Shown here piece by piece: positions 2,687 to 51,141 of a stretch of 64,000 bases of DNA (its first letter is position 1; each line of letters begins with the position of its first letter). The stretch comes from Rhodobacteraceae bacterium NBU2976. Its GTDB lineage: Bacteria > Pseudomonadota > Alphaproteobacteria > Rhodobacterales > Rhodobacteraceae. Location: positions 1-64,000 of the forward strand of contig JALPRQ010000002.1 in NCBI GenBank assembly GCA_023630215.1, written 5' to 3'. Position numbers and translations under genes: made by a program. The notes below the pieces were generated by a model. It saw nothing but the letters and a program-made list of their open reading frames with translations, was not told where the DNA came from and ran no database searches.

Positions 2687-3178
2687 TTAGCCAAAATCTC
2701 GTCGTTGCTTAACAATTGCGGCTGCTACGCGAGGCAGGTAAATGGACATCATAAAGCTAAAACAGGTGAAGAACACAAACGCACTTGTGATTGGTTTAAG
2801 GTGCGTTGGAACCACCTGATAGGAAGTTAATTGGACTGCGAAGAATTTCGTAATCAGCCCTAGAATTATCGCGATGAAGTATATCGAGAAAAGTAAGTAT
2901 TGTTGCGCAACCAAATTTTGATCGGATTCCGCAAGGGCTGTTTCAATTCTATCGACTTCGTCAGCATCCGCATACTCAGCCGGACGCACGCTTGGTTTTG
3001 ACGCTAAGACTGTAAAAATTGCTAGCGAAACGCCCACAAAAATAGCTAATACGCTGGACGAAATATCAACCATCGCCCAATAAGGTTTCGGGTCTCGCCA
3101 AGCATGAAAGGCAACGAAACCCGCGATAACGATGGCAACCAAAAACCACCCCGTCGTGAATTTCAAATTTCCGTTCAT
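2687..3178 (-). CDS. Four-helix membrane protein, candidate RexB-like partner
   Basis: A 163-residue integral membrane protein with four predicted helices: about residues 9-25, 39-59, 96-117 and 131-152. Helices 2 and 3 are joined by a charged cytoplasmic-type loop (DADEVDRIETALAESDQN). Its ATG overlaps the stop of the 302-residue gene upstream (ATGA). Size, four-helix topology, gene order and coupling match lambda rexB (144 residues, four helices, directly after rexA). Sequence identity to RexB, recalled from memory, is weak, so the call rests on topology and context. AT-rich composition unlike thyX upstream points to recent acquisition. Another membrane effector of a two-gene defence module is the main alternative. 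Confidence 0.5.
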   Translation of the reverse strand: MNGNLKFTTGWFLVAIVIAGFVAFHAWRDPKPYWAMVDISSSVLAIFVGVSLAIFTVLASKPSVRPAEYADADEVDRIETALAESDQNLVAQQYLLFSIYFIAIILGLITKFFAVQLTSYQVVPTHLKPITSAFVFFTCFSFMMSIYLPRVAAAIVKQRRDFG

Positions 3179-4083
3179 ACTTTAATTAATCCTTCTGAGA
3201 TAAGTTCTTTTTGGAAGATTGCTAGTTCGTTTTCCAATTGCTGATAATGAACAGTGTTCGCGTAACGACGAACGCTAACTCTCTTAATTAGTTTTAGGTT
3301 TCTGTTCGTTAGAACCTTCCCATTTTCAAGATGGATCGTATAGGCCTCTTCAGTGTCTGACTCTACAACTTCAGATCCTATCTCTGTTAGCCACACGTCC
3401 TTCTCAATCTCATCTTTTCTAAATCTTCCGCGGCTTAAATGTATCCTGCCAACTGTATTAGCTCGCTTCCGAATATCCTCTTTCGCTCCAGGACGGGTCA
3501 GGAGCATATCTAATACGGCGGGAACACTCTGCCTAAAATCAGGTAGCGAAGCCAAATATCCTGTAATCCCGAAGTCAATTCTCGAGACACCAAATTCCTT
3601 CAGTTCATCCAATTTGACTTTGTTTGGCACGTCTTCAATTTCCAGCCTAGTTTCTCCTTTTGTGAGCCCAAGAGACGAACAAATTTCACATATGCACCTT
3701 GACAATGTTCTGTTTTTGTTCGCCATACCTGATGCTATAATGTCATTATCTTTGATTAGCAAGACCATGTCATTCAGGAGGAATTCTTGGTTTTGTGGAG
3801 GCTGTAACTCTTCAATCCCGGCAGAGGTGGTGGTGCTGGAAAAATTAATTGTACCAGTACCGCCGTTCTCAAACTCAAAAATATGAATGAAAACACCATT
3901 CGCACCGTCTTGTTCCCTAATGCTCGCGAACACGATCGACTTCAACAAATCTACTTTGACGATCCTGTCCACCGCTTTCGCCTGTCGCTGAAAAAGCGAC
4001 GTTAGCAAATCTTCAAGTGTGGATTTGTAATCGGAAGAAAAAATCGCTTTTTTGAAAACAAGTGTTTTGGTTCTATCAGACAT
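3175..4083 (-). CDS. Candidate RexA-like protein of a two-gene exclusion module
   Basis: A 302-residue soluble protein, AT-rich and unlike its neighbours in codon use. The middle part (about residues 95-170) runs LNDMVLLIKDNDIIASG, then a Leu/Cys-rich helix, then GLTKGETRLEIE and a Val/Asp-rich strand. In order and spacing this parallels the recalled central part of lambda RexA (FLFVEGDTIGFA, a helix, LSSGERVQIEP). RexA is a DNA-binding sensor that acts with the RexB membrane protein in phage exclusion. Here the next gene encodes a four-helix membrane protein with an overlapping start. The ribosome-binding site (GAGGGG) lies within the last codons of thyX, so expression may follow thyX. The homology is inferred by eye; no prophage genes surround it. 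Confidence 0.5.
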   Translation of the reverse strand: MSDRTKTLVFKKAIFSSDYKSTLEDLLTSLFQRQAKAVDRIVKVDLLKSIVFASIREQDGANGVFIHIFEFENGGTGTINFSSTTTSAGIEELQPPQNQEFLLNDMVLLIKDNDIIASGMANKNRTLSRCICEICSSLGLTKGETRLEIEDVPNKVKLDELKEFGVSRIDFGITGYLASLPDFRQSVPAVLDMLLTRPGAKEDIRKRANTVGRIHLSRGRFRKDEIEKDVWLTEIGSEVVESDTEEAYTIHLENGKVLTNRNLKLIKRVSVRRYANTVHYQQLENELAIFQKELISEGLIKV

Positions 4084-8711: not shown

Positions 8712-9347
8712 ATGACCAGCCCGTCCCTGACGTTACGCCCAAGAAAACAACCCTCGCAGGCCCGGGCGGCCTTTACGGTTGATGCGATTTTGGAGGCAAC
8801 GGTTCACATTTTGGAAGCCTCACCAGATGGGCAATTTACCACGAAGCAGGTGGCGGAACGGTCCGGCGTGTCGATCGGATCGCTTTACCAGTATTTCCCC
8901 AACAAGCAGGCGCTGGTGGCGGAGTTGGTGCGACGCAAACTGGCGTTGTTGGTGGACGCCACGCGGAAGGCGTGTGAGACGGCACCTGCGGGGTATGAGG
9001 AAGCGCTGCGCCATGTGATTGCCAATATTATTGCGGAAAAACAACGGAACATGCGCCAGTCGCTGGCCCTGTCCCCGGTCATGACGGGGTTCGAGGTTCA
9101 GGCGATTGTGCGCGACTATACCGCGCAGGTGTACGACAGCCTTCAAACCTGTATCGAAACGCGGCTGGACCGGGCGCTGACCCCTGCAGAGGTCGACCGC
9201 CTTGGCATTGCCATCAATGCGGTCGAGGGGGCGCTGTCGGTGATGGTGAAATCTGATCCCAACAAGCTGACACAGGTGGGACTGATTGAGACGCTGCACC
9301 GGATGTTCGTCGCAACGCTGGGTATCAATACTCAAGACCGCTCATAA
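8712..9347 (+). CDS. TetR-family transcriptional regulator
   Basis: A TetR-type repressor of 211 residues from the ATG at 8712. A TTG at 8697 keeps the frame open but has no advantage. The HTH is QFTTKQVAERSGVSIGSLYQYFPNKQALVAEL (about residues 37-70), with the YQYF and NK signature of the family. The C-terminal ligand domain is helical and variable. It is divergent from the SDR gene 7724-8632, so control of that gene in response to a small hydrophobic ligand is a reasonable inference. Confidence 0.9.
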   Translation: MTSPSLTLRPRKQPSQARAAFTVDAILEATVHILEASPDGQFTTKQVAERSGVSIGSLYQYFPNKQALVAELVRRKLALLVDATRKACETAPAGYEEALRHVIANIIAEKQRNMRQSLALSPVMTGFEVQAIVRDYTAQVYDSLQTCIETRLDRALTPAEVDRLGIAINAVEGALSVMVKSDPNKLTQVGLIETLHRMFVATLGINTQDRS

Positions 9348-9374
9348 AAAAAGGCCGCCTCGGCTGAGGCGGCC
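9346..9374 (-). terminator. Rho-independent terminator of the outer-membrane protein gene
   Basis: On the minus strand the stem is GGCCGCCTC/GAGGCGGCC (9366-9374 with 9353-9361), with a 4-base loop, followed by a run of T (9346-9352 as A on the plus strand). It also lies at the very end of the convergent TetR gene. Confidence 0.88.
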
Positions 9375-9396
9375 CGTTCAATTCGACAATACAGTC

Positions 9397-10272
9397 TTAG
9401 TCGTAGATGGAAGTGTTCACGCCCATACGGGTCAGAACGGATTTTTCCATCATCGGCGTGGACGTGCCATAGACGCTGCGCAGGTCGCCGCCAAACAGGT
9501 AGCTGACGCCGATTTCAGCGCGCAATTCTGTGCCGGAGCCGTCGCCATCCGCATCAACCGTCGTTCCACCCAGCAATGCCGAGCCGTAGAAGTTCGAACC
9601 GCCAAGACGCATCGTGGCTTCGACGCTGTAGTCGAGCTGGGACATTTCTTCGCTGTGAATTTGACCCATGCTGGAATTTAACAGACCGGTGATCATCAGG
9701 TTATCATTGACGAAGTAACGCGCCTGAACACCATAGAACATGTAGTCGGTAAAATTGAGCGAGCTGTGGGTGGAATCGCTGGATGCTGCACCAACATGCG
9801 CGGTCATCAAGATGCCGCTGAATTCAGCCGCGACTTCCAGACCATACCATGTCATATCACCTTGGTCGTCGGAATAGATTTCATCCCACTGTCCCATTCC
9901 ATAGAAACCACCAACGCGGTAGCCGCCAATGTCATAATTCAGGTGCCCGGTGTAGGCGGTCATGGAATAGAAATCACCATCTTCCGTGAAGGTCGCCTGT
10001 TCGGTGCCTGCGTCAAGCTGCCAGCCGAATCGGCCGAAGCTGGAACCCACGGTACCGTCAAGGAAGTAGAAGGTGTCCGCGTACTCGTCGCTCGGCGCGT
10101 CAGAGTTTGCGACAGACGCCGTATTGTAGCCATAGCCCAATGTGACCGCGCCACCAAGATTGTAAGCGGGTCCCGTGGCGACTGCTGCGGTGTCTGGAAC
10201 ATATGCAGGGCTTCCTGCAAGTGCCGGAGCCGCGACGATAAGTGCTGCGACGGAGGATGTGATGAGTTTCAT
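9397..10272 (-). CDS. Putative outer-membrane beta-barrel protein
   Basis: A 291-residue exported protein. The ATG at 10272 has GAGGGA before it and starts a typical signal peptide (KLITSSVAALIVAAPALA, cut near residue 19). The rest is rich in Gly, Tyr, Phe, Thr and Ser, with alternating hydrophobic residues (for example GGAVTLGYGYNTASV, WYGLEVAAEF, YMFYGVQARYFVN), as in porin-like barrels. A strong terminator follows it. It is transcribed alone. No specific porin family is recognised, and the substrate is unknown. Confidence 0.7.
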   Translation of the reverse strand: MKLITSSVAALIVAAPALAGSPAYVPDTAAVATGPAYNLGGAVTLGYGYNTASVANSDAPSDEYADTFYFLDGTVGSSFGRFGWQLDAGTEQATFTEDGDFYSMTAYTGHLNYDIGGYRVGGFYGMGQWDEIYSDDQGDMTWYGLEVAAEFSGILMTAHVGAASSDSTHSSLNFTDYMFYGVQARYFVNDNLMITGLLNSSMGQIHSEEMSQLDYSVEATMRLGGSNFYGSALLGGTTVDADGDGSGTELRAEIGVSYLFGGDLRSVYGTSTPMMEKSVLTRMGVNTSIYD

Positions 10273-10564
10273 GTGTCCCTCGTAAAACAAGAAAAGAGTA
10301 TCTTCGGATGCGTGTAGCTACCAGTTTTCGCCAAAATTTAGCAAGAGACGCATGGGAGTATTTTGAGCACATCCCGGTGTCGCAACATATTTGCAACAGT
10401 ATCTTAGCTTCGACGCGGGAATCTCACAGAGCGAACGGGCGCTATCATGCGGCACTCGATGCGTTAGCGCCCTTTGGGCACCTGAAAAACTGCACAAACG
10501 GCTCGCAGAATATGTGCATTTCTCTCATAAGGTGGCGGGAATCATAACCACGTAGGCTTGATCT
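10273..10564. other. Intergenic region with one inverted repeat
   Basis: Divergent spacer between the barrel protein and the DUF817 gene. GGGCGCTA (10437-10444) and TAGCGCCC (10465-10472) form an 8-bp stem with a 20-base loop, possibly an operator or hairpin. A 79-codon frame on the plus strand (10308-10547) lacks a ribosome-binding site and is judged chance. Confidence 0.4.
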
Positions 10565-11404
10565 GTGAGCATCGAGATTTCTGCCCATTCCGCCAACCTT
10601 AACGTCGAACGCCAGATGGGTGATTTCATGCGGGCGCGGTTGCCGCATGGGGTCGCAGAGTTCGTGATGTTCGGCCTGAAAATGGCGTGGGCCTGTCTGT
10701 TTGCCGGGCTGATGCTGGGGGCGATTATCCTGACGGCGCTGGTCTGGCCCGATGATGCGGTAATGGCGCGCTATGATTTTCTGGTGCTGTTTGCGGTTCT
10801 GACGCAGGTGCTGTTCCTGTGGTTCCGTCTGGAAAGCCTGTCCGAGGCGAAGGTGATCCTGCTATTCCATATCAGCGGCACGATTATGGAGATTTTCAAG
10901 CTGCGGATGGGGTCGTGGTCCTATCCGGAACCGGGGCTATTGAAACTGTTCGATGTGCCGCTGTTTTCGGGGTTCATGTATGCCTCGGTCGGAAGCTTCA
11001 TGGCGCGGGTGATCCGACTGTTTGACATGGAATTCGTGCGCTACCCGTCATTTGGCTGGACGGTTATGCTGGCGGTGGCGATTTATCTGAATTTCTTCAG
11101 CCACCATTATATCTGGGATATCCGTTATCTACTGTTTGCCGCGACACTGGTGCTGTTCTGGCGGACGCGGATCTATTTCACACCGTTCGGGACGCGCCTG
11201 TGGATGCCCCTGCCACTGGCGGCGTTTTTATCCTCACTGTTTCTGTATATCGCCGAGAATATCGGGACGCTGACGGGGACGTGGTTATATTCGGGCTCGG
11301 CCCATTTCAGTTTTACGTCGATGGCGAAGATCGGGTCTTGGTATTTGCTGCTTTACGTCAGTTTCGTGCAGGTGACGTTGGTTTATCGGCAGGCGCTGAA
11401 ATGA
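10565..11404 (+). CDS. DUF817-family integral membrane protein
   Basis: A 279-residue protein with about eight hydrophobic segments. It carries the DUF817 landmarks: a first membrane segment near residue 35, HISGTIMEIFKLRMGSWSYPEP near residue 100, an Asn-Phe-Phe-Ser-His-His-Tyr segment near residue 180 and a C-terminal ENIGTLTGTWLYSG block. Function is not known for the family. The GTG at 10565 is the likely start, but the ribosome-binding site is weak and a later start at 10616 (ATG) is possible. Followed by gloA after about 70 bases. Confidence 0.8.
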   Translation: MSIEISAHSANLNVERQMGDFMRARLPHGVAEFVMFGLKMAWACLFAGLMLGAIILTALVWPDDAVMARYDFLVLFAVLTQVLFLWFRLESLSEAKVILLFHISGTIMEIFKLRMGSWSYPEPGLLKLFDVPLFSGFMYASVGSFMARVIRLFDMEFVRYPSFGWTVMLAVAIYLNFFSHHYIWDIRYLLFAATLVLFWRTRIYFTPFGTRLWMPLPLAAFLSSLFLYIAENIGTLTGTWLYSGSAHFSFTSMAKIGSWYLLLYVSFVQVTLVYRQALK

Positions 11405-29781: not shown

Positions 29782-31614
29782 ATGATGCACCCAACCCCTG
29801 CCCCCGACCTGTTCCGCGACGCCCGTGACGCCGCCAGCGGCAAGAATATGGGCGACCTGCCGGAATGGAAGCTGGAGGATTTATATCCCAGCGAGGACGG
29901 GCCAGAGATCAAAGGCGATCTTGACTGGCTGGGCAAGGAAACCGCGGCATTTGGCGCAGATTACACCGGGAAGCTGGCCGAACTGGATGCTGCCGGGATG
30001 CTGGACTGCGTGCATCGCTACGAGAAAATTCAGAACATCACCGGGCGGATCATGTCCTATGCGGGCCTTCGCTATTATCAGGCAACGACGGATGCCCAGC
30101 GCGGCAAGTTCATGTCGGACATGCAGGCGGCGGTGACGGATATGTCGACGCATCTGGTGTTCTTTTCGCTGGAGTTGAACCGCATTTCCGATGAGGCGCT
30201 GGATGCGCTGCTGGCGGAGAATGCGGATCTCGCCCGCTATAAACCCGTGTTCGACAGCGTGCGCAAAATGCGCCCCTATCAGCTTTCGGACGAGTTGGAA
30301 AAATTCCTGCATGATCGGTCGGTCGTTGGGTCGGCGGCGTGGAACCGTTTGTTCGATGAAACCATGGCCGGGCTGGAGTTTGACGTAGATGGCGAGACAT
30401 TGAACCTGGAGGCCACGCTGAACCTGCTGACCGATACGGACCGGTCAAAACGCGAAGTGGCGGCCAAGGCGCTGGCCAAAGTGTTCGTGGACCGATTGCC
30501 CCTATTTTCCCGCATCACCAACACCTTGATCAAGGAAAAGGAAATCGTCGACAAATGGCGCAAGATGCCGACACCCCAGACCGGGCGGCACCTGTCGAAT
30601 GATGTGGAACCCGAGGTGGTCGAGGCCCTGCGCAATGCAGTGGTGAACGCCTATCCGAAACTCTCGCACCGTTATTATGCGCTGAAAGCCAAGTGGCTGG
30701 GGCTGGACAAACTGGAAGTCTGGGACCGCAATGCGCCCCTGCCCGGCGAAGACACGCTGACCATCCCGTGGGATCAGGCAAAGGCAACGGTGCTGGAGGC
30801 ATACGGTGAGTTCGACCCGCGCATGGCCGACATCGCCCAGCCGTTCTTTGACAAGGGCTGGATTGATGCACCGGTGAAGCCCGGTAAATCACCAGGCGCG
30901 TTTGCGCATCCGACCGTCACGAATGTGCATCCCTATATCCTGTTGAATTACCTTGGCAAACAGCGCGACGTGATGACGCTGGCGCATGAGTTGGGCCATG
31001 GTGTGCATCAGGTGCTGGCGGCTGATCAAGGTGAATTGCTGGCGGATACGCCGCTGACCTTGGCGGAAACGGCCTCGGTCTTTGGCGAGATGCTGACCTT
31101 CCGCAAATTGCTAGAAAACGCCCCGGATCAGAAGGCGCGCAAACGGCTTCTGGCCTCCAAGGTCGAAGATATGATCAACACGGTCGTCCGCCAAATTGCG
31201 TTTTACGATTTCGAATGCCGGGTGCACGCGGCCCGCAAGGATGGCGAGCTGACGCCCGACCAGATCAACGCAATCTGGATGGAAGTGACGCATGAATCCC
31301 TCGGCCCCGCATTCAATATCATGGAAGGATACGAAGCCTTCTGGACCTATATCCCGCACTTCATCCACTCGCCGTTTTATGTCTATGCCTATGCGTTTGG
31401 CGACGGTCTGGTGAACGCGCTTTATGCGGTTTACGAGGAAGGCGACGCAGGCTTTCAGGAGAAATATTTCGACATGCTCAAAGCGGGCGGCTCTCAACAT
31501 CATTCGACTTTGCTGGCCCCGTTCGGGCTGGACGCGAGTGATCCGAAATTCTGGGACAAAGGCCTGTCGCTAATCGCCAGCATGATTGATGAATTGGAGG
31601 CGATGGAGGGGTAA
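29782..31614 (+). CDS. pepF: M3-family oligoendopeptidase F
   Basis: A 610-residue cytoplasmic zinc oligopeptidase. The metal site LAHELGHGVHQ (HExxH) lies near residues 400-410, with the third ligand Glu in ETASVFGE near residue 432. The PepF/M3B architecture is seen in full: PEWKLEDLYPSEDGPEIKGDL at the start and FNIMEGYEAFWTYIPHFIHSPFYVYAYAFGD near the end. AAGGAG precedes the ATG. It cleaves peptides of about 6-20 residues; its position after the yej transporter and peptide-related genes fits use of imported peptides. Confidence 0.95.
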   Translation: MMHPTPAPDLFRDARDAASGKNMGDLPEWKLEDLYPSEDGPEIKGDLDWLGKETAAFGADYTGKLAELDAAGMLDCVHRYEKIQNITGRIMSYAGLRYYQATTDAQRGKFMSDMQAAVTDMSTHLVFFSLELNRISDEALDALLAENADLARYKPVFDSVRKMRPYQLSDELEKFLHDRSVVGSAAWNRLFDETMAGLEFDVDGETLNLEATLNLLTDTDRSKREVAAKALAKVFVDRLPLFSRITNTLIKEKEIVDKWRKMPTPQTGRHLSNDVEPEVVEALRNAVVNAYPKLSHRYYALKAKWLGLDKLEVWDRNAPLPGEDTLTIPWDQAKATVLEAYGEFDPRMADIAQPFFDKGWIDAPVKPGKSPGAFAHPTVTNVHPYILLNYLGKQRDVMTLAHELGHGVHQVLAADQGELLADTPLTLAETASVFGEMLTFRKLLENAPDQKARKRLLASKVEDMINTVVRQIAFYDFECRVHAARKDGELTPDQINAIWMEVTHESLGPAFNIMEGYEAFWTYIPHFIHSPFYVYAYAFGDGLVNALYAVYEEGDAGFQEKYFDMLKAGGSQHHSTLLAPFGLDASDPKFWDKGLSLIASMIDELEAMEG

Positions 31615-31746: not shown

Positions 31747-33447
31747 CTAAATCTTGAATGAATAATAGTCTTTAGAGTAACTGACTGGAATATTGCTTCC
31801 TAGATACTTAAGATTAACAAAAGAAAACGCCCTCGCCAAGTCGGATCGTGACAGAGACTTGGATTCACTTTTCGTAATTAAATTTCGTTGCGCTCGTTCA
31901 AGGTCTTCAGCAATTGCTGTTGATCGAATATCAAACTTATCAATCAATTCTGTAATAAATGAACTGCTCAAGACCTCGCTGGCAAGCCCCTCAGCACGGA
32001 AGGTTTTGATGCCATAATTTTCGTTGGGTTCAATATGCTCGATGTTTTTAATAAAACGGTAGTAACTACGTTTCATTGCTCGGTTGACTGCCGAGACCTC
32101 CCGCCATTTTGGGTTAATCATCTCCTTGATCGACCTTGATTGGTTTGCATAGAAGGCTAGGAAAGAGGATGACTGATACGGAAGCATTGTTTTAGATCCA
32201 TATGTATTGGTTAAAGAGGATAAATTTCTCAACGCAAAGCAGCGATATGAAAAGTGATTAAACTGCTCCAATAACATCCTTTTTGAGGCAAGATTGGATT
32301 TCGTTTGCTGATGGGACATGCGATTTAAAATTGATGAAACAACAAAATTTTCATCCAAGCCAAGTCGCTTAAGCGATTTGCGGTCTGTTAAAAGAAACAA
32401 CAAGGTATAGAACACGCTGGGTTCTATTTTTGGCACAACCTTTGAAGCCACTTTGGTTACAAGGTCAATAAACGGAAAATCACAAAATAAGCTATTTTTA
32501 ACGAGGCTCTTTAGCAAAGACTTAACTTCGCGAACACCTACTCCATTCTCGAAAGCAGCACTTAGTTTTGACATATCTAGCCCGATGATAGCATCGGCGT
32601 TTTGACCACTAAGCACCAAACTATTACCGACATCTACGTCCCAATGTGGGTTCATGGGATTAATAAGATTAATCTCCATTTTCTTGGCGAGTTCTCCTTG
32701 GAAGCGTTCATCGTAAAAATTATCTGAACCAACTTTTTCTAACTCCCAACCAAACAATTCCGCAACTGCATCAGCTTTTTTCGGATTGTTATCTTGGGTT
32801 GCACTGCGTTTTAAATTTATAAATCGCGGGCGAAGTCCACATTCCATTGCCGCTACACCAATCAGTGTACTATCGATACCGCCTGACAACATAATTGCTG
32901 CGTCAGGTGCTATCTGAAAGTGTTCGTCCACGGATCGGACAAGCGATTCAATCGGATTCCGTCGCGAACCATTTGCGGACTGAGTGGCGTACATATCGCT
33001 TACAAAGTTATTTTTTTGAATACCTGACTCGCTGAATTGGAAAAAGTCGCCACTGTCAAAATAGTGAACTCCGGCGTTTGGTGGGACGCAACCGAACGGC
33101 AGTCCACTAAAAACTGTATTCCAAACAAATAGATCATCAAATTCTGTAAATGCGATGTAACTTGCTACGTCTGATAGTGTTTTGCAAAAAAAATATTCTC
33201 CCAGTACTTCTACCAAATATCCTCCTGAAAATCCTGTCGACGCGGATACAAATCTAACCCCTTTAACATGACCATGAACCAAGTAGTCGCCACAAGAATT
33301 AAGTGTTTCCTCTTGGTGAATGCCCTCAATCCCTGAAGTCAGAAAAGCACGCTCGATATCTTTTAATCGTACGCGGCTAACGGTTCCCGTCACAAAGCAG
33401 CTTGAATCGTCGGAGCAGTCTTTTATTACGTGCTTCTCGATTCTCAT
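31747..33447 (-). CDS. Asparagine-synthetase-like PP-loop ATPase (lone, AT-rich)
   Basis: A 566-residue protein from the ATG at 33447 (MRIEK...), which overlaps the stop of the small ORF upstream (TGATG). The PP-loop SGGIDS at residues 188-193 is the ATP-pyrophosphatase signature of asparagine synthetase B, beta-lactam synthetase and lasso-peptide cyclase families. The N-terminal 150 residues correspond to the glutaminase-like domain but lack the catalytic Cys2, so glutamine-derived ammonia is unlikely. It may form amide bonds on a special substrate. AT-rich composition and codon use differ sharply from pepF and cobB. No lasso leader peptidase or exporter lies next to it. Classification to the superfamily is firm, product unknown. 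Confidence 0.75.
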   Translation of the reverse strand: MRIEKHVIKDCSDDSSCFVTGTVSRVRLKDIERAFLTSGIEGIHQEETLNSCGDYLVHGHVKGVRFVSASTGFSGGYLVEVLGEYFFCKTLSDVASYIAFTEFDDLFVWNTVFSGLPFGCVPPNAGVHYFDSGDFFQFSESGIQKNNFVSDMYATQSANGSRRNPIESLVRSVDEHFQIAPDAAIMLSGGIDSTLIGVAAMECGLRPRFINLKRSATQDNNPKKADAVAELFGWELEKVGSDNFYDERFQGELAKKMEINLINPMNPHWDVDVGNSLVLSGQNADAIIGLDMSKLSAAFENGVGVREVKSLLKSLVKNSLFCDFPFIDLVTKVASKVVPKIEPSVFYTLLFLLTDRKSLKRLGLDENFVVSSILNRMSHQQTKSNLASKRMLLEQFNHFSYRCFALRNLSSLTNTYGSKTMLPYQSSSFLAFYANQSRSIKEMINPKWREVSAVNRAMKRSYYRFIKNIEHIEPNENYGIKTFRAEGLASEVLSSSFITELIDKFDIRSTAIAEDLERAQRNLITKSESKSLSRSDLARAFSFVNLKYLGSNIPVSYSKDYYSFKI

Positions 33448-33635
33448 CAAATATTTCTCCATACAAATCGGTCACATTTTAAAATAGTTTTGCGTTCCAC
33501 CTTCATTAGGGGGTCGTCGTTTGTCAACGCTGGACGTCCGATTATCTCGACCCATCGAATTTCTGTTACTGATCGTACTGCTAGGAAATCTTGCTTTAAA
33601 ATTGCCACACACTTCGCCTGCAAAGTGTGCTCCAA
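33447..33635 (-). CDS. Small ORF coupled to the asparagine-synthetase-like gene
   Basis: A 62-residue frame starting at a TTG and ending with TGA that shares its A with the ATG of the next gene. Basic and aromatic end (KTILKCDRFVWRNI). Composition is AT-rich like its partner. It shows no clear domain, signal peptide or ribosome-binding site. A different frame (33472-33729, 85 residues) covers the same DNA, so a frameshift joining the two is possible. If real it could be a precursor or partner peptide of the downstream enzyme, which is speculation. Confidence 0.3.
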   Translation of the reverse strand: MEHTLQAKCVAILKQDFLAVRSVTEIRWVEIIGRPALTNDDPLMKVERKTILKCDRFVWRNI

Positions 33636-33732
33636 AAATTATAAAATCCTTATCCAAATTCGGTGGTTGTATTTTTGCAGTAGCGTTCCAAAACTGGAAG
33701 GAAATGCCATCCAAATAAAGACATTTCAATTG

Positions 33733-35040
33733 TCAGGAGCCTGTTTGTGACAACGCAATCACATGCGCAAATGACCCGCAAACACGTCCGTTGATATGCC
33801 CCATATCGGGAAGCGGGTTACCGATTGCGCCTTTGGCGCTGAACAAGCGGCCCGGTTCGGACTTTGTAACCGTGGCGTAATGAAACTCGTGCCCTTTTAG
33901 CGGCCCCCACGGCAAGACAGGCTCGGGGGTCAGGTGCCGGTAGCCCAGATGAAATTTTGGGGTTTCAAAACTGGTAGAAACCGGCAGGAACCCCAACATG
34001 GGATAGGTGATGCCGCCTCCATCGGTCAGGGTCTCGCCCAGCACCATATACCCGCCACATTCGCCATAGATAAGTGTTCCCCGTTCGCGCGCGCTGACCA
34101 TCCCATCGCGAAAAGCGCGATTCATCGTGAGCGTTCGGGCATGGAGTTCCGGGTAGCCACCGGGCAGATATATAGCATCAACCGAGGGATCCGGCGCCTC
34201 GTTCGCAAGTGGGGAAAAGACCCTGATTTCTGCCCCCTGACGTTGCCAGTCTGATAGAATGTGCGGGTAGACAAAGCCAAACGCTTCGTCACGTGCCACC
34301 GCGATACGTTGACCAAGGGGGGAAAGGCGCGGCGCTGATTGTGCAGGGGTTACATCCGCTGCCAACCCAAGCAAGGCCTGCAGGTCGACATGTTCAGCGA
34401 CCAAGCTTGCTGCCTTTTTGATGAATTTCACCAGATCGGGACGCTCGCCGGGTTGCACCAACCCCAGATGGCGGGACGGTGTGTCCAGACGGTCGGACCG
34501 AGGCACAGCGCCCAGCACCGGAATGCCGGTGGTCGCAATCGCGCGGGTCAGCATGTCGACATGGCGTTCTGACCCGACACGGTTCAGGATCACGCCGGCG
34601 ATGCGCACATCGTTGCGGTAATTGGCAAGACCCTGCACCAGAACGGCGGCGGTTTGTGCCTGATGCGAGGCTTCCAGCACCAGGACAACGGGCAGGTCTA
34701 GAATGGCGGCAAGGTCGGCGACCGATCCTTTGCCCATCGGGTCATCGTCCGGTGCCCCGTCGAACAGACCCATCGCCCCTTCGACGATCAGAAGCTCGCC
34801 ACCCTGCCCCGATGCTGTGGCGCGTAGCTGGTCTGGCGGCATGGCCCACGCATCCAAGTTGACACAGGGGTTGCCACTGGCGGCGGCGTGAAATTGCGGG
34901 TCAATATAATCCGGCCCGGATTTGGCCGAGCGCACATCGACCTTTCGGTCGCGCAGCGCACGCAGCAGCCCCAACGTGATCATGGTTTTGCCCGACGCCG
35001 AGCGAGGCGCGGCAATGATCAGCCCCTTTTGTGTTGCCAT
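33733..35040 (-). CDS. cobB: Cobyrinic acid a,c-diamide synthase (CobB/CbiA type)
   Basis: Amidates the a and c side chains of (hydrogeno)byrinic acid with glutamine and ATP. 435 residues: an N-terminal dethiobiotin-synthetase-like ATPase with a Walker A (APRSASGKTMITLGLL, residues 10-25) and SAKSGPDYIDPQFH, then a C-terminal glutaminase with the catalytic Cys in YGECGGYMVLGE (near residue 325) and a final FHYATV. Last gene of the cobalamin operon read from 42.2 kb; AT-rich islet DNA begins right after its stop. Confidence 0.95.
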   Translation of the reverse strand: MATQKGLIIAAPRSASGKTMITLGLLRALRDRKVDVRSAKSGPDYIDPQFHAAASGNPCVNLDAWAMPPDQLRATASGQGGELLIVEGAMGLFDGAPDDDPMGKGSVADLAAILDLPVVLVLEASHQAQTAAVLVQGLANYRNDVRIAGVILNRVGSERHVDMLTRAIATTGIPVLGAVPRSDRLDTPSRHLGLVQPGERPDLVKFIKKAASLVAEHVDLQALLGLAADVTPAQSAPRLSPLGQRIAVARDEAFGFVYPHILSDWQRQGAEIRVFSPLANEAPDPSVDAIYLPGGYPELHARTLTMNRAFRDGMVSARERGTLIYGECGGYMVLGETLTDGGGITYPMLGFLPVSTSFETPKFHLGYRHLTPEPVLPWGPLKGHEFHYATVTKSEPGRLFSAKGAIGNPLPDMGHINGRVCGSFAHVIALSQTGS

Positions 35041-45087: not shown

Positions 45088-45846
45088 TTACCCTATTTCG
45101 TAGCCCATTTTATCAGCAAGTGATGATACCCGTTCATTTAAGAGCCTAGAGTAAATCACCTTGTTCTCGGTAGGCAGCCGTTTGTAATTGTCAGTTTTTT
45201 TGTTTCTATCAATTACTGCATTGGCAAATCCACATGCGGACCATAGTCGTCGCATATGAGAAGGATCATCACCGTACAAATCTTCGAATTTGAACATGCC
45301 TGCGAAACATTCACGTTCATGCATCTCTAACAGAAAATCATTGATTTCAAGCCATTGATATAGTGCGCGCTCAAAGTGTGTGTAATTTGGATATTCGAAA
45401 CTCAGATCATGATGTTTAGCGTTATCATGAAAAGGTGTTATTAATCCGTGCCGCTGCCAACTAGATATTTCACCAGTCAGGGTATTCATAGCGGATAGTG
45501 AGATGGCGGTATCTATTGGATTTCGCACAATATGAACAAACTTGAAGTTTTTAAGGAACCTATTTTCGAGGTAGGGAATCCAAGGAAATGATGGCCAACC
45601 AGTGTCAATAAAGCTTCTTCCGCTATTTAATGATTCTTCCACTCTAATCAGATGTGCTTTTACGGCACGTAGTTGCCCGACGAGTTCATCTTGTCTTAAA
45701 TTTCGGAATGCTTGAGACGGTCTATATTTAATTCCGATAGCCTCATGAACAACTGTTGCCCTAGGTTCGCCTTGCAACAGCAACATACATAAATTTTGCG
45801 TACTAGTTCGTCCTGTCGAGGCGAAATGAATTAGATCTGGCAACAA
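45088..45846 (-). CDS. Sulfotransferase-like protein, AT-rich
   Basis: A 252-residue protein with features of PAPS-dependent sulfotransferases: HFASTGRTSTQNLCMLLL at the N-terminus (5'-phosphosulfate loop type) and FVHIVRNPIDTAISLSAMNT (3'-phosphate-binding VRNP-Ser block, near residue 100). It would transfer sulfate to a hydroxyl or amino group of a surface glycan, lipid or metabolite, not known. No good ATG exists in frame: TTG at 45846 is used, and an earlier upstream extension is possible, so the N-terminus is uncertain. AT-rich, isolated from any capsule cluster. Confidence 0.68.
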   Translation of the reverse strand: MLPDLIHFASTGRTSTQNLCMLLLQGEPRATVVHEAIGIKYRPSQAFRNLRQDELVGQLRAVKAHLIRVEESLNSGRSFIDTGWPSFPWIPYLENRFLKNFKFVHIVRNPIDTAISLSAMNTLTGEISSWQRHGLITPFHDNAKHHDLSFEYPNYTHFERALYQWLEINDFLLEMHERECFAGMFKFEDLYGDDPSHMRRLWSACGFANAVIDRNKKTDNYKRLPTENKVIYSRLLNERVSSLADKMGYEIG

Positions 45847-47540: not shown

Positions 47541-47995
47541 AAAAATTTCCTTAAAGTAATAGATGTTGGGCGATCATATCCATCATGCGCCGTCTCCGCC
47601 ACTTTCACAAAGCCTAGCGCGGCGAAGGTTTTGTGGTTCGCGGTCAGCTCGACCCGCGTTTGCAGTTCCAGAAAGCCAAATCCGCGTTCCCGGGCTATCT
47701 CCTCGGCCTCTGCCAACAGCGCCCGCGCCAGCCCCTGTCCGCGCTGACTGGCATCCACGGCGATTTTGCCGACATAAAGCGCATCGCCCAGCGGCTTACA
47801 CAGCGCACAGGCTACCGGCGGATCGCCAATGACCAGCGCAACGCCTTCGACCGCCGCACGTTCCAGATCCTCAACAGTCAGGTGATGCATGGAGCTTGGG
47901 GGATCAATCACCCCGTCCATATAGGCAAAGCTGCGCTGGATCAGCTTCAGCATGGGGGCGAAATCGTAGGGGGGCGTGATGCGGGTGACGGTCAT
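47537..47995 (-). CDS. GNAT acetyltransferase
   Basis: A 152-residue GNAT-fold protein starting at the ATG at 47995, which overlaps the stop of the restriction-modification reading frame (ATGA). It carries YVGKIAVDASQRGQGLARALLAEAEEIA (acetyl-CoA loop, near residue 85) and LELQTRVELTANHKTFAALGF. The longer open frame to 48163 lies inside the R-M gene and is not used. Substrate unknown. Confidence 0.85.
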   Translation of the reverse strand: MTVTRITPPYDFAPMLKLIQRSFAYMDGVIDPPSSMHHLTVEDLERAAVEGVALVIGDPPVACALCKPLGDALYVGKIAVDASQRGQGLARALLAEAEEIARERGFGFLELQTRVELTANHKTFAALGFVKVAETAHDGYDRPTSITLRKFL

Positions 47996-48729
47996 TCCGG
48001 CCCTCCCAAATCCATCGTGATCGTTTTCATGATCCGGTCGGTTTCGGAGAGGATTTTGATGATGCGCTGGTAGTGGCGGATGTCGTCGAAGGACAGCGTG
48101 CGGCCCTTGCGGTCCTTTAGCCATTTCTGCGCGGGCTGGTAGCCGCCGATATAGAAATCCCATGACACGTCCGGGACGTTTTCAAACCGCTGACTGTCGT
48201 TGATCCAGACATGACCGTCCTTGCGGAGGGGTTTGTCCACTTCGCCATCGCCCTCGCCGACAAAGGGATAGGGCGTGTCGCCGATAACGTCGGCCTCCAT
48301 CAGGTGGAGACGGCGGAGGCGGTTGCCCTTGGCCGACACATCCCAGAATTCATCGGGGGAGGAGGGCCAGGGGATGCGGGGGAAGTCGATTTTCAGGAAC
48401 TCGGCATACGTCTCGCGGTAGGCGGGGCAATGGAGGGTGCCGTAGATATAGTCGAAGGTCTGCAATTCGTCCGGCTCGCCATGCGTGGGGTGCGTGGCGA
48501 GGGCCCGGAGTTTTTTATAGAGCTTCGGATCGAAGTTTATGCGGCGGGTTTGGTCGAGGTCTTGTTCGTCGGGGTAGAGGTAGATGGGGAAAACAGCGCT
48601 TTGTGTCGTTCTTTCTCCACATTTCGTCTCGACTAACTTGTTACTAATGTAGAAGTGACTGCAAGTTCCCGATTTTTCACTTCTTGCCGACACTAGCGCA
48701 AGGTTCTGACCTTTAATCATATTGTCCAT
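47992..48729 (-). CDS. C-terminal portion of a single-chain restriction-modification protein, cut off by an amber codon
   Basis: A 245-residue continuation of the frame of the larger R-M gene upstream. It keeps the conserved block ETKCGERTTQSAVFPIYLYP (residues 35-54) that in type ISP/IIG-like enzymes lies within the recognition and C-terminal region, then DYIYGTLHCPAYRETYAEFLKIDFPRIPWP and YIGGYQPAQKWLKDRKGRTLS. It is in the same frame as the 797-residue part and separated by one TAG (48748-48750) and six sense codons. Whether an internal start at 48729 works is unknown. AT-rich only in its first 40 codons. Confidence 0.75.
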   Translation of the reverse strand: MDNMIKGQNLALVSARSEKSGTCSHFYISNKLVETKCGERTTQSAVFPIYLYPDEQDLDQTRRINFDPKLYKKLRALATHPTHGEPDELQTFDYIYGTLHCPAYRETYAEFLKIDFPRIPWPSSPDEFWDVSAKGNRLRRLHLMEADVIGDTPYPFVGEGDGEVDKPLRKDGHVWINDSQRFENVPDVSWDFYIGGYQPAQKWLKDRKGRTLSFDDIRHYQRIIKILSETDRIMKTITMDLGGPE

Positions 48730-48747
48730 TGTCGACCGGGCCGTCGT

Positions 48748-51141
48748 CTAGACCACGCTCTCATGGAAAATTATCTTCCGATCATCAAAAGGACGGTAAC
48801 TAATCTCTCTAATTAAAGAACTGCGATCTTGCACGTTCCTCAAGCTTGCTCTAGCTCTTGAAATGTCCCATCCTTTCTTCAAAGGAATATCGAGCATGTT
48901 GCAAAGCTCTGAATCCGACAATTCAACATTCGACGCAAATTCCTGAATTCGCTGAGTTAGTATCTGACTATTTTCGGAAATACTAAAACCGTCCCTCGCC
49001 GTTATTACCCCGGACGAATAAATAGGGAAGAAATCTGCCAAACTCGGTGCTTCTTCAACGTATTTACTAAACGAAGGACCTGAAGGGTGGAAGATATAGT
49101 TTGGAGAAACTGCTCCGCAATCAACCCAATCTGTTTCGCCGAACGATTTTGTATATAAGGTTTCTCCCTTATATCTTCGTGATCCCCATAGCTCGCTAAA
49201 ATATACTTTCCCTTTTTGAGAGGATGATTTTTTTACTTTTACGCATATTAGTATCGCTACACCTTGTTTAATTTCGAAAACGTTTTCATCGGTAATATCA
49301 GCCGGAGGCACTTCACGTATCTCGCTATTGCCATGAAGATCGAGGACATACACTCGATCAAAGGAGTCGAGAAGATGCGATCGCAACCCGCGAAATGAGC
49401 TGCTTTTTAAATAGCCATGGCTCGTAACAAAACCCAATATTCCATATCCGGTCTTTCTAAGAATTCTTTCTGCCAATGCGATAAATTTAATGTAATCATT
49501 ATTAATGTTTTTCTCGAATTGTAGCATTCCCTTTTCTTTGATTTTATTACCGTCAACATATCTAAATGGCTCAACTAACTGAATTTGTTCATCAGACAAA
49601 TTGCCTGACATTATGTTATAGGGCGGGTTGCCGATCACGCACATGATCGGTTGCTGGCGTTTGATGTTGTTGGCCGCTCGCGCCTCATTCGTCAGCCATT
49701 GGGCCATGAACAGGTCGCGGACCTCGCGCTCGCCTTCCTCCAGCGAGTTGGTCAGATAGACCGACAAGCGCGGCGGCTGGCCGGTGGGCTTGTAGCCCAG
49801 CTCCGTCAGGATCATGTCCAGCTTCATGTGGCACATGGCATAAGAGGCCATCAGCAGTTCGAAACCATGCAGGCGCGGGATCAGGTCGCGTTCGATATAG
49901 CCGGACCACATGCCTTCAGCGATGCCCTTGACGCGCGGGGCGATCTGCTTGATGACCTCCGCCAGAAAGGTGCCTGTGCCCGTCGCAGGATCGAGGATCT
50001 GGACCCGGTGGACCTCCCGCTTATTGGTGATGGGTTTGCCCTTTTTGTCGAGAAACCCGGTGTCCCAGTCGACGGTGACTTTGGACGTATCCGCCAGCCC
50101 GTCGGCCAGTCCAAATTCCTTTTGCAGCACCTCGTCCACCGCGCGGACGATGAAATTGACGACGGGTTCGGGGGTATACCAGACCCCCCGCGCCTTGCGT
50201 TTTTTAGGGTTATATTCCTTTAGGAAGTCTTCATAGAAATGAATAAACGGGTCGTTGCGTTTGGTCAGCGATCCGAAATTGGCCATCAGTTTCGCCAGGT
50301 CACAGGCCTGAAACACCAGCGCCAGTTCGTCGATGATCCAGCGGATACGGTCATCCAGCGTCGGTCCGGCGATATAGCTGAACAGGTTGCGCAGGAACGG
50401 GTTGGTTTTCGGGAGGAGTTCGAGGGCTTCTTGGCGCGAAAAATCCTCTACGGTCGGGTCGTGCAGGCGGGCAGCGAACATGCCGTAGGCGATGGTTTCG
50501 GCGTAGATATCCGCAAATTCATCGGGCGAGATATCGTGGATCAACTGTTCCTTGAAACCGCGATATTGCCCCGCCAGTTCGGTTTGCAGGTCGGCGTCTT
50601 CGCGCAGCGCCTTGCCCATCACGTCCTTGATCAGCGTCGCCCGTCCCGCCATCATTTTCGCCAGCTTCGCGGCGGAGGTGATGGTTTGCGGACGGGCAGT
50701 GACGAAATCCTGTAACAGGTGGGCGAACTGGTCGAAATTTTCCGGCCGCGGCTGGATGCCCATCAGCACGTCCCCGATGGTGACCGAGGCGATCCGTTCC
50801 CCCTCGCGATAGAAATCCCAGTCGAGGCCATTGGTATAGATCAGGTTCGGCAGGCCCGCGATATAGCGATCCTGCTGTTCCTTGTTCGGCCCTTTGCGCG
50901 GGCGGATGTCGATTTCAATGTCTTTGGCCTCAATATGGCCTAGCGGAATGTCGCCCTGTTCGATGATGAAATCCGGGGCGCCGCACGCCTCGCGTTTGGG
51001 TTCATTGGTTGCGATGATGTCTGCGGTGGTTTCGATCAGCGTCTTGATGGCCGGGCGATAGGAATGCTCGGTCGCGTTGCCGCGCGCATGAATGGCGGAA
51101 ATGTCGGTCAGGAACTGGGAAATATCAGCGGTTGAAATCAT
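48748..51141 (-). CDS. Type IIG/ISP-like restriction-modification protein, N-terminal portion ending at in-frame TAG
   Basis: A 797-residue part of a single-chain nuclease-methyltransferase. Residues 56-73 (PDFII...GHIEAK) match a PD-(D/E)xK nuclease. A helical connector follows, then the adenine-N6 methyltransferase with motif I DPATGTGTF (384-392), GVWYTPEPVVNFIVRAV (319-335) and motif IV NPPY (505-508). From residue about 508 to the end the DNA is AT-rich and encodes the target-recognition domain. The stop is a TAG where relatives appear to have Trp or another residue, and the same frame continues for 245 residues to 47992. It lies 10 bases after cobN, inside the cobalamin operon. Confidence 0.85.
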   Translation of the reverse strand: MISTADISQFLTDISAIHARGNATEHSYRPAIKTLIETTADIIATNEPKREACGAPDFIIEQGDIPLGHIEAKDIEIDIRPRKGPNKEQQDRYIAGLPNLIYTNGLDWDFYREGERIASVTIGDVLMGIQPRPENFDQFAHLLQDFVTARPQTITSAAKLAKMMAGRATLIKDVMGKALREDADLQTELAGQYRGFKEQLIHDISPDEFADIYAETIAYGMFAARLHDPTVEDFSRQEALELLPKTNPFLRNLFSYIAGPTLDDRIRWIIDELALVFQACDLAKLMANFGSLTKRNDPFIHFYEDFLKEYNPKKRKARGVWYTPEPVVNFIVRAVDEVLQKEFGLADGLADTSKVTVDWDTGFLDKKGKPITNKREVHRVQILDPATGTGTFLAEVIKQIAPRVKGIAEGMWSGYIERDLIPRLHGFELLMASYAMCHMKLDMILTELGYKPTGQPPRLSVYLTNSLEEGEREVRDLFMAQWLTNEARAANNIKRQQPIMCVIGNPPYNIMSGNLSDEQIQLVEPFRYVDGNKIKEKGMLQFEKNINNDYIKFIALAERILRKTGYGILGFVTSHGYLKSSSFRGLRSHLLDSFDRVYVLDLHGNSEIREVPPADITDENVFEIKQGVAILICVKVKKSSSQKGKVYFSELWGSRRYKGETLYTKSFGETDWVDCGAVSPNYIFHPSGPSFSKYVEEAPSLADFFPIYSSGVITARDGFSISENSQILTQRIQEFASNVELSDSELCNMLDIPLKKGWDISRARASLRNVQDRSSLIREISYRPFDDRKIIFHESVV

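Follow-up and report, generated by a model that had tools for sequence, protein, structure and literature searches.

Enzymes of the asparagine synthetase B (AsnB) type that lack a glutaminase and serve other acceptors exist, beta-lactam synthetase being one of them. In Escherichia coli AsnB, the first Glu of the second motif is considered to assist the attack of ammonia. The uronamide-forming enzymes WbpS and WbqG are assigned to TIGR03108 (PMC7468200, in extract), and the AsnB of the Tannerella pseudaminic acid (Pse) cluster has been proposed for the acetamidino group of Pse (PMC6120980, in extract). Lasso peptides generally require B and C proteins (PMC5067487, in extract).

Here, we characterize an AsnB-like protein encoded in the window, meaning the whole 64,000-nucleotide stretch of Rhodobacteraceae bacterium NBU2976 DNA that was analyzed. 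Set against canonical asparagine synthetase B (TIGR01536, PF00733), the window protein aligns over the PP-loop domain, the linker, and part of the N-terminal domain, whereas it is without Cys2, has a shorter N-terminal domain, and carries GQNADA in place of GxGxDE. It has the AsnB-type architecture of WbpS and WbqG (TIGR03108, eps_aminotran_1) and may, by that likeness, share a surface-sugar role with them, but it differs from them in its truncated glutaminase domain and in giving no TIGR03108 match at E ≤1.

Position, composition, and distribution of the gene

The AsnB-like, glutaminase-less PP-loop enzyme gene lies at 31747..33462 on the minus strand and, in the ORF listing, spans 571 codons when read from its outer ATG (33462); an alternative inner start, the ATG at 33447 (M6), would give a protein of 566 residues. 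The PP-loop motif SGGIDS (residues 193–198; 32869..32886, minus strand), located by sequence and motif alignment, presumably forms the ATP/pyrophosphate site, as in the rest of the family. The second motif, GQNADA (residues 286–291; 32590..32607, minus strand), was placed by alignment against a Paracoccus relative and 26 AsnB-type proteins. Cys is absent after either possible start (M1 or M6), which, together with SGGIDS, bears out the asparagine-synthetase-type protein without a glutaminase Cys that a preliminary description of this DNA had reported. The predicted structure of the protein had a mean pLDDT of 31 and was given no weight.

The same description had called the DNA AT-rich and foreign-looking, and this held, with GC at 0.41 against neighbors near 60%. 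Third-position GC of the gene is 0.39. The native flanks are a pepF-like M3 peptidase gene (29782..31614, plus strand; GC 0.58, third-position GC 0.73) and a CobB/CobQ-type cobB (33733..35040, minus strand; GC 0.61, third-position GC 0.65). Among 12 further genomes from the genus (7 of which are ≥90% complete with ≤5% contamination) the window protein was found in none, and the 294 other genomes in the family sample gave no match either. Across the class, 5 of 384 other genomes gave matches, over short stretches only; by eye, three of these are LarE-like PP-loop frames of short length, and the remaining two, of 613 and 633 codons, are AsnB-like. Absence from the sample does not amount to absence from the family, as the family sample failed to recover the Paracoccus gene and the genus Paracoccus lay outside the sampling. 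Judged from its foreign composition and its absence from the sampled relatives, the AsnB-like gene is horizontally acquired.

We also compared the surroundings of the gene with those in congeners. Where a close cobB occurs in congeners (eight loci, 61%–66% identity), no pepF was seen within ~1.5 kb beyond the match, though at the same ~1.5-kb reach our own locus shows no pepF either, because the acquired gene sits between. Read by eye, a LysR-type regulator lies downstream of cobB in seven of the eight congener loci, two of which have a HAD-like frame in between, and the eighth was unreadable. Downstream of pepF, seven congener loci carry ABC-transporter genes, a short host-attachment-like gene, or an oxidoreductase, also by eye. 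Since the flank order differs in the congener loci read, the pepF–cobB interval that holds the acquired gene looks like a rearrangement junction particular to this genome.

Further features of the window were noted in passing. An AT-rich, foreign-looking gene at 45088–45846 (minus strand; GC 0.41, GC3 0.35) stands beside what by eye is a cobO-like frame and scores 24.4 bits with Sulfotransfer_3, a weak match under the cut-off of 27. At 47992–51141 (minus strand), a Type ISP restriction-modification methylase is split in its C-terminal specificity domain into two frames, covering profile positions 1–96 and 107–341. Two AT-rich frames of 163 and 302 aa at 2687–4083 (minus strand; GC 0.42–0.45) lie beside thyX (Thy1) and have no Pfam match at E ≤0.01.

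Family placement and relatives

A tblastn search of 72,556 plasmid records with the window protein (E ≤0.1) returned one relative, from Paracoccus denitrificans, with 51% of the query covered at E 1e-6. When the two proteins were compared alone, they shared 20% identity over 479 residues (E 2e-14). From the window protein and this sole long relative, we built a two-row profile. Among genome contigs, the window protein alone found no locus and the two-row profile found one, the same Paracoccus gene in strain DSM 413.

The Paracoccus protein (L007 9803–11770; L073) is related to the window protein over most of its length, is likewise without an N-terminal Cys, and shares the motif GQNxDA, but identity between the two is no more than 20%–22%. 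It is 616 aa long as compared, or 655 from its first ATG, against 571 aa in the window. Unlike the window gene, its gene is of 58%–60% GC (1-kb bins) and adjoins PseB, PseC, and PseI, all over their NCBIfam cut-offs. PseG in this cluster falls just below cut-off (142.9 of 153.55 bits), and the cluster also holds a cytidylyltransferase and an ATP-grasp gene; the order is PseI, one large gene with no Pfam match at E ≤0.01, and the AsnB-like gene. The window gene, flanked by pepF and cobB, is not in a surface-sugar cluster, and only the Paracoccus relative is. Among curated models, the Paracoccus protein scores 29.3 bits with plain AsnB and 16.9 of 570.1 bits with TIGR03104 (N-acetylglutaminylglutamine amidotransferase). 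Searched across the order, it matched 3 of 389 other genomes, all canonical AsnB by eye. The two-row profile matched 4 of 389 in the order (E ≤1e-5), all four starting Met-Cys-Gly by eye, and 67 of 298 other genomes in the phylum (E ≤1e-3).

For family placement, we used an AsnB set drawn from 29 script-checked phylum loci, of which the 26 with a Met-Cys-Gly/Ser start in the first 80 residues were retained (L032, L042, and L043 were left out). The preliminary description had suggested a profile comparison, and in it the window protein falls with the AsnB-type proteins: hhalign of the two-row profile against the 26 gave a probability of 98.2 (E 3.9e-14) over residues 52–294, and the window protein alone gave 96.1 (E 3.2e-9) over residues 116–294. 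Residue 131 of the window protein pairs with residue 198 of a canonical AsnB (locus L031), and from this alignment the window protein is of AsnB type with the start of the glutaminase domain missing. Scores against curated models were low. Pfam Asn_synthase (PF00733; cut-off 21) gave 19.3 bits with the protein and 21.3 bits in a six-frame search, and the NCBIfam matches all fell far below cut-off, namely LarE (19.8 of 150 bits), AsnB (TIGR01536; 17.3 of 267.1), and NF033561 (10 of 300). All of these curated-model matches were restricted to the PP-loop stretch, and the NCBIfam matches at E ≤1 included neither TIGR03108 nor any other sugar-amidotransferase model. By sequence, then, the window protein is a divergent AsnB-family member outside every curated subfamily tested.

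A LarE-type sulfur transferase was considered, as LarE provided both the best NCBIfam line and the best PDB profile lines, each over the PP-loop stretch only. We rejected it because the AsnB alignment extends beyond that stretch into the linker and some of the N-terminal domain. The PDB search, made with the thin two-row profile, had returned three lines, comprising two LarE sequences and AsnB.

The second motif sets the window and Paracoccus proteins apart. In the AsnB set, which was picked as canonical and found with the window profile, G-x-G-x-D occurs in all 26 proteins, followed by E in 25 and by D in 1. The window protein has GQNADA and its Paracoccus relative GQNMDA, together G-Q-N-x-D-A. 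As Gln stands at the same position in 4 of the 26 canonical proteins (SGQGADE), it is Asn and Ala that distinguish the pair. A literature search, not made by motif name, returned nothing on a window/Paracoccus AsnB subfamily.

The host has a Pse cluster of its own on another contig, with PseB, PseF, PseG, and PseI over cut-off (PseC was outside the search). The Pse genes are followed by a Capsule_synth gene and then by a 500-codon AsnB-like gene that overlaps the Capsule_synth gene by 4 nt, an arrangement like that in Paracoccus, where the AsnB-like gene likewise comes after PseI and one large gene. The product of this gene (L094 6367–7869, C1) aligns with the AsnB set (hhalign 97.6), and its best NCBIfam line is TIGR03108, at 27.5 of 816.9 bits. 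Like the window protein, it is cysteine-less and truncated; unlike it, it has SAGKDS as its PP-loop and DGGGNDS as its second motif. Direct comparison of the two proteins was not significant (best BLAST E 1.5; hhalign probability 0.6). Another nonulosonate-type setting was seen by eye in locus L025 (genome G801), where an AsnB-like gene without a Met-Cys start (8966–10807) lies near NeuB-, NeuC-, and cytidylyltransferase-like genes.

A phage origin was examined and rejected. The leads were short: an Erwinia phage match covers residues 172–290 (E 0.1), IMG/VR contig matches cover residues 187–252 only, and phrog_16728, a 579-position family of unknown function, matches residues 133–245 of the window protein with 19.2 bits. 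The last also matches the Paracoccus (26.2 bits) and host Pse-cluster (26.7 bits) AsnB-like proteins. Viral scans with the window protein and with the Paracoccus protein found no relative, and PADLOC gave no match. As a separate observation, phages do encode lone PP-loop proteins of ~280 aa, at L008 4959–5822 (the Erwinia phage, phrog_26038, unknown function) and L071 7950–8789 (IMG/VR contigs).

Small frames ahead of the gene

Two small frames with TTG starts overlap between the gene and cobB on the minus strand, one of 62 codons (33447..33635) and one of 85 codons (33472..33729), both as the preliminary description had reported. The overlap of start and stop that it described is likewise present: in TGATG (33445..33449, minus strand), TGA at 33449–33447 ends the 62-codon frame and ATG at 33447–33445 opens the inner start (M6), with GGAG 9 nt ahead of that ATG. 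The plus strand is also open here, for 106 codons (33430–33750).

The length of these frames was compared with 5,000 dinucleotide shuffles of the 286 nt from the cobB stop to the inner start, on one strand, a test chosen after the frames had been seen. A frame of at least 85 codons occurred in 0.68% of shuffles and one of at least 62 codons in 8%, and a frame of at least 84 codons plus another of at least 60 occurred in 0 of 5,000. Codon scores trained on the AsnB-like gene (its two halves reach 0.211 and 0.155, in part by construction) were −0.012 for the 85-codon frame and 0.022 for the 62-codon frame; shuffles averaged −0.124 (sd 0.081). By 90-nt windows, the best-scoring frame was a third one at first (0.05), then the 85-codon frame for the two middle windows (0.05 and 0.03), and finally the 62-codon frame (0.16).

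Searches for relatives were negative. Neither frame matched Pfam or NCBIfam at E ≤1. The 62-codon frame had no plasmid match at E ≤10, found only itself in its own genome, and reached a best E of 0.17–0.18, at chance level, among the 1,919 frames of the fetched loci and the window. The 85-codon frame had a best E of 2.2 among the same frames (phmmer) and three chance-level lines in plasmids at E ≤10. No small frame precedes the AsnB-like gene at the Paracoccus locus or the host Pse locus, where the preceding gene is long. A precursor peptide in the 62-codon frame, which the preliminary description had entertained, is thus not supported, the frame having no relatives in plasmids, its own genome, or the 1,919 frames and being absent at the Paracoccus and host loci. 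Rfam gave two lines far below gathering scores. TATAAT lies just ahead of the TTG of the 62-codon frame; a promoter scan reported no site there, and we draw nothing from it. The scan found one site, at 33541–33569, against 4.8 in shuffles.

The suggestion that a frameshift hides a larger partner survives in part, in that a modest hint of an upstream gene remains, but convincing relatives of either frame did not emerge. The two frames are perhaps the cut, frameshifted 3' end of a former foreign upstream gene, truncated at cobB, the 85-codon frame as its possible first half and the 62-codon frame as its second, unless the latter arose by chance; the signal is modest and post hoc.

Candidate functions and their significance

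The window protein is best placed, by analogy, beside surface-sugar AsnB-like enzymes. We consider it an even prospect that this acquired AsnB-like enzyme, its glutaminase dead, makes an amide-type bond on a surface sugar; both substrate and chemistry are inferred. In such a reaction, the PP-loop domain would use ATP to activate a carboxyl (or amide) group, either on the surface sugar itself or on its acyl substituent. AMP would then be displaced by free ammonia or by an amino compound rather than by glutamine, so that the sugar would end up with an amide or amidine decoration. A possible source of the substrate is the Pse pathway of the host itself, and the gene may have come with the cut end of an upstream gene. 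As no sugar gene adjoins the window gene, the link to Pse is drawn from one distant relative and from analogy.

The preliminary description had pointed instead to lasso-peptide cyclases and beta-lactam synthetases. Such membership is not supported, with no curated model over cut-off and the long relative in a surface-sugar cluster; tested by family models, by PDB profile, and by looking for the B protease, it is left as unlikely. The coupled-looking start TGATG would suit a RiPP enzyme, for example a lasso-peptide cyclase whose substrate peptide comes from the 62-codon frame, as would the weak matches to NF033561 (albusnodin/ikarugamycin cyclase), which cover only the PP-loop in the window protein (10 of 300 bits) and, in the Paracoccus relative, residues 29–239, reaching the N-terminal domain (16.6 of 300 bits). 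Both matches, however, are far below cut-off, and the Paracoccus protein scores more with plain AsnB. The lasso B protease PF13471 was not found in the genome at E ≤0.001 (2 of 14 control genomes match, 1 over cut-off), and the 62-codon frame has a TTG start, no relatives, and no counterpart at the Paracoccus locus. We regard this role as highly improbable. Somewhat better, though still rather unlikely, are the prospects of a ligase that, through beta-lactam-synthetase-like or NAGGN-like chemistry, makes a small natural product or a dipeptide-like metabolite with no tie to surface sugars. The weak TIGR03104 match of the Paracoccus relative and the want of sugar genes next to the window gene agree with it, but there are no biosynthetic neighbors, the Paracoccus relative stands in a sugar cluster, and the PDB search at E ≤10, a weak test given how thin the two-row profile is, brought up no beta-lactam or carbapenam synthetase.

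The gene might also be a passenger that came to the junction by chance, perhaps along with the remains of another gene, and is not, or no longer, used. It is a lone gene at that junction, found in 0 of 12 congeners, the pepF-cobB adjacency occurs in no congener locus read, and the upstream frame appears broken; against this, 571 codons run without a stop, and the PP-loop and the shared second motif are intact. We give this a minor chance. Overall, the lasso or RiPP role is unlikely, and the enzyme most likely decorates the sugars of the cell surface instead of making peptide antibiotics.

Taking the surface-sugar decorator further, we tentatively raise the possibility, itself doubtful, that the window and Paracoccus proteins represent a rare GQNxDA subfamily of AsnB that uses a non-glutamine-derived amine to decorate Pse-type sugars, such that the arrival of a single gene could switch the surface glycan of the host. 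If this is true, the tailoring of bacterial Pse glycans, whose steps are poorly assigned, would gain a further type of enzyme. It would also mean that such tailoring genes move singly and that one gene could alter the surface met by phages and predators.
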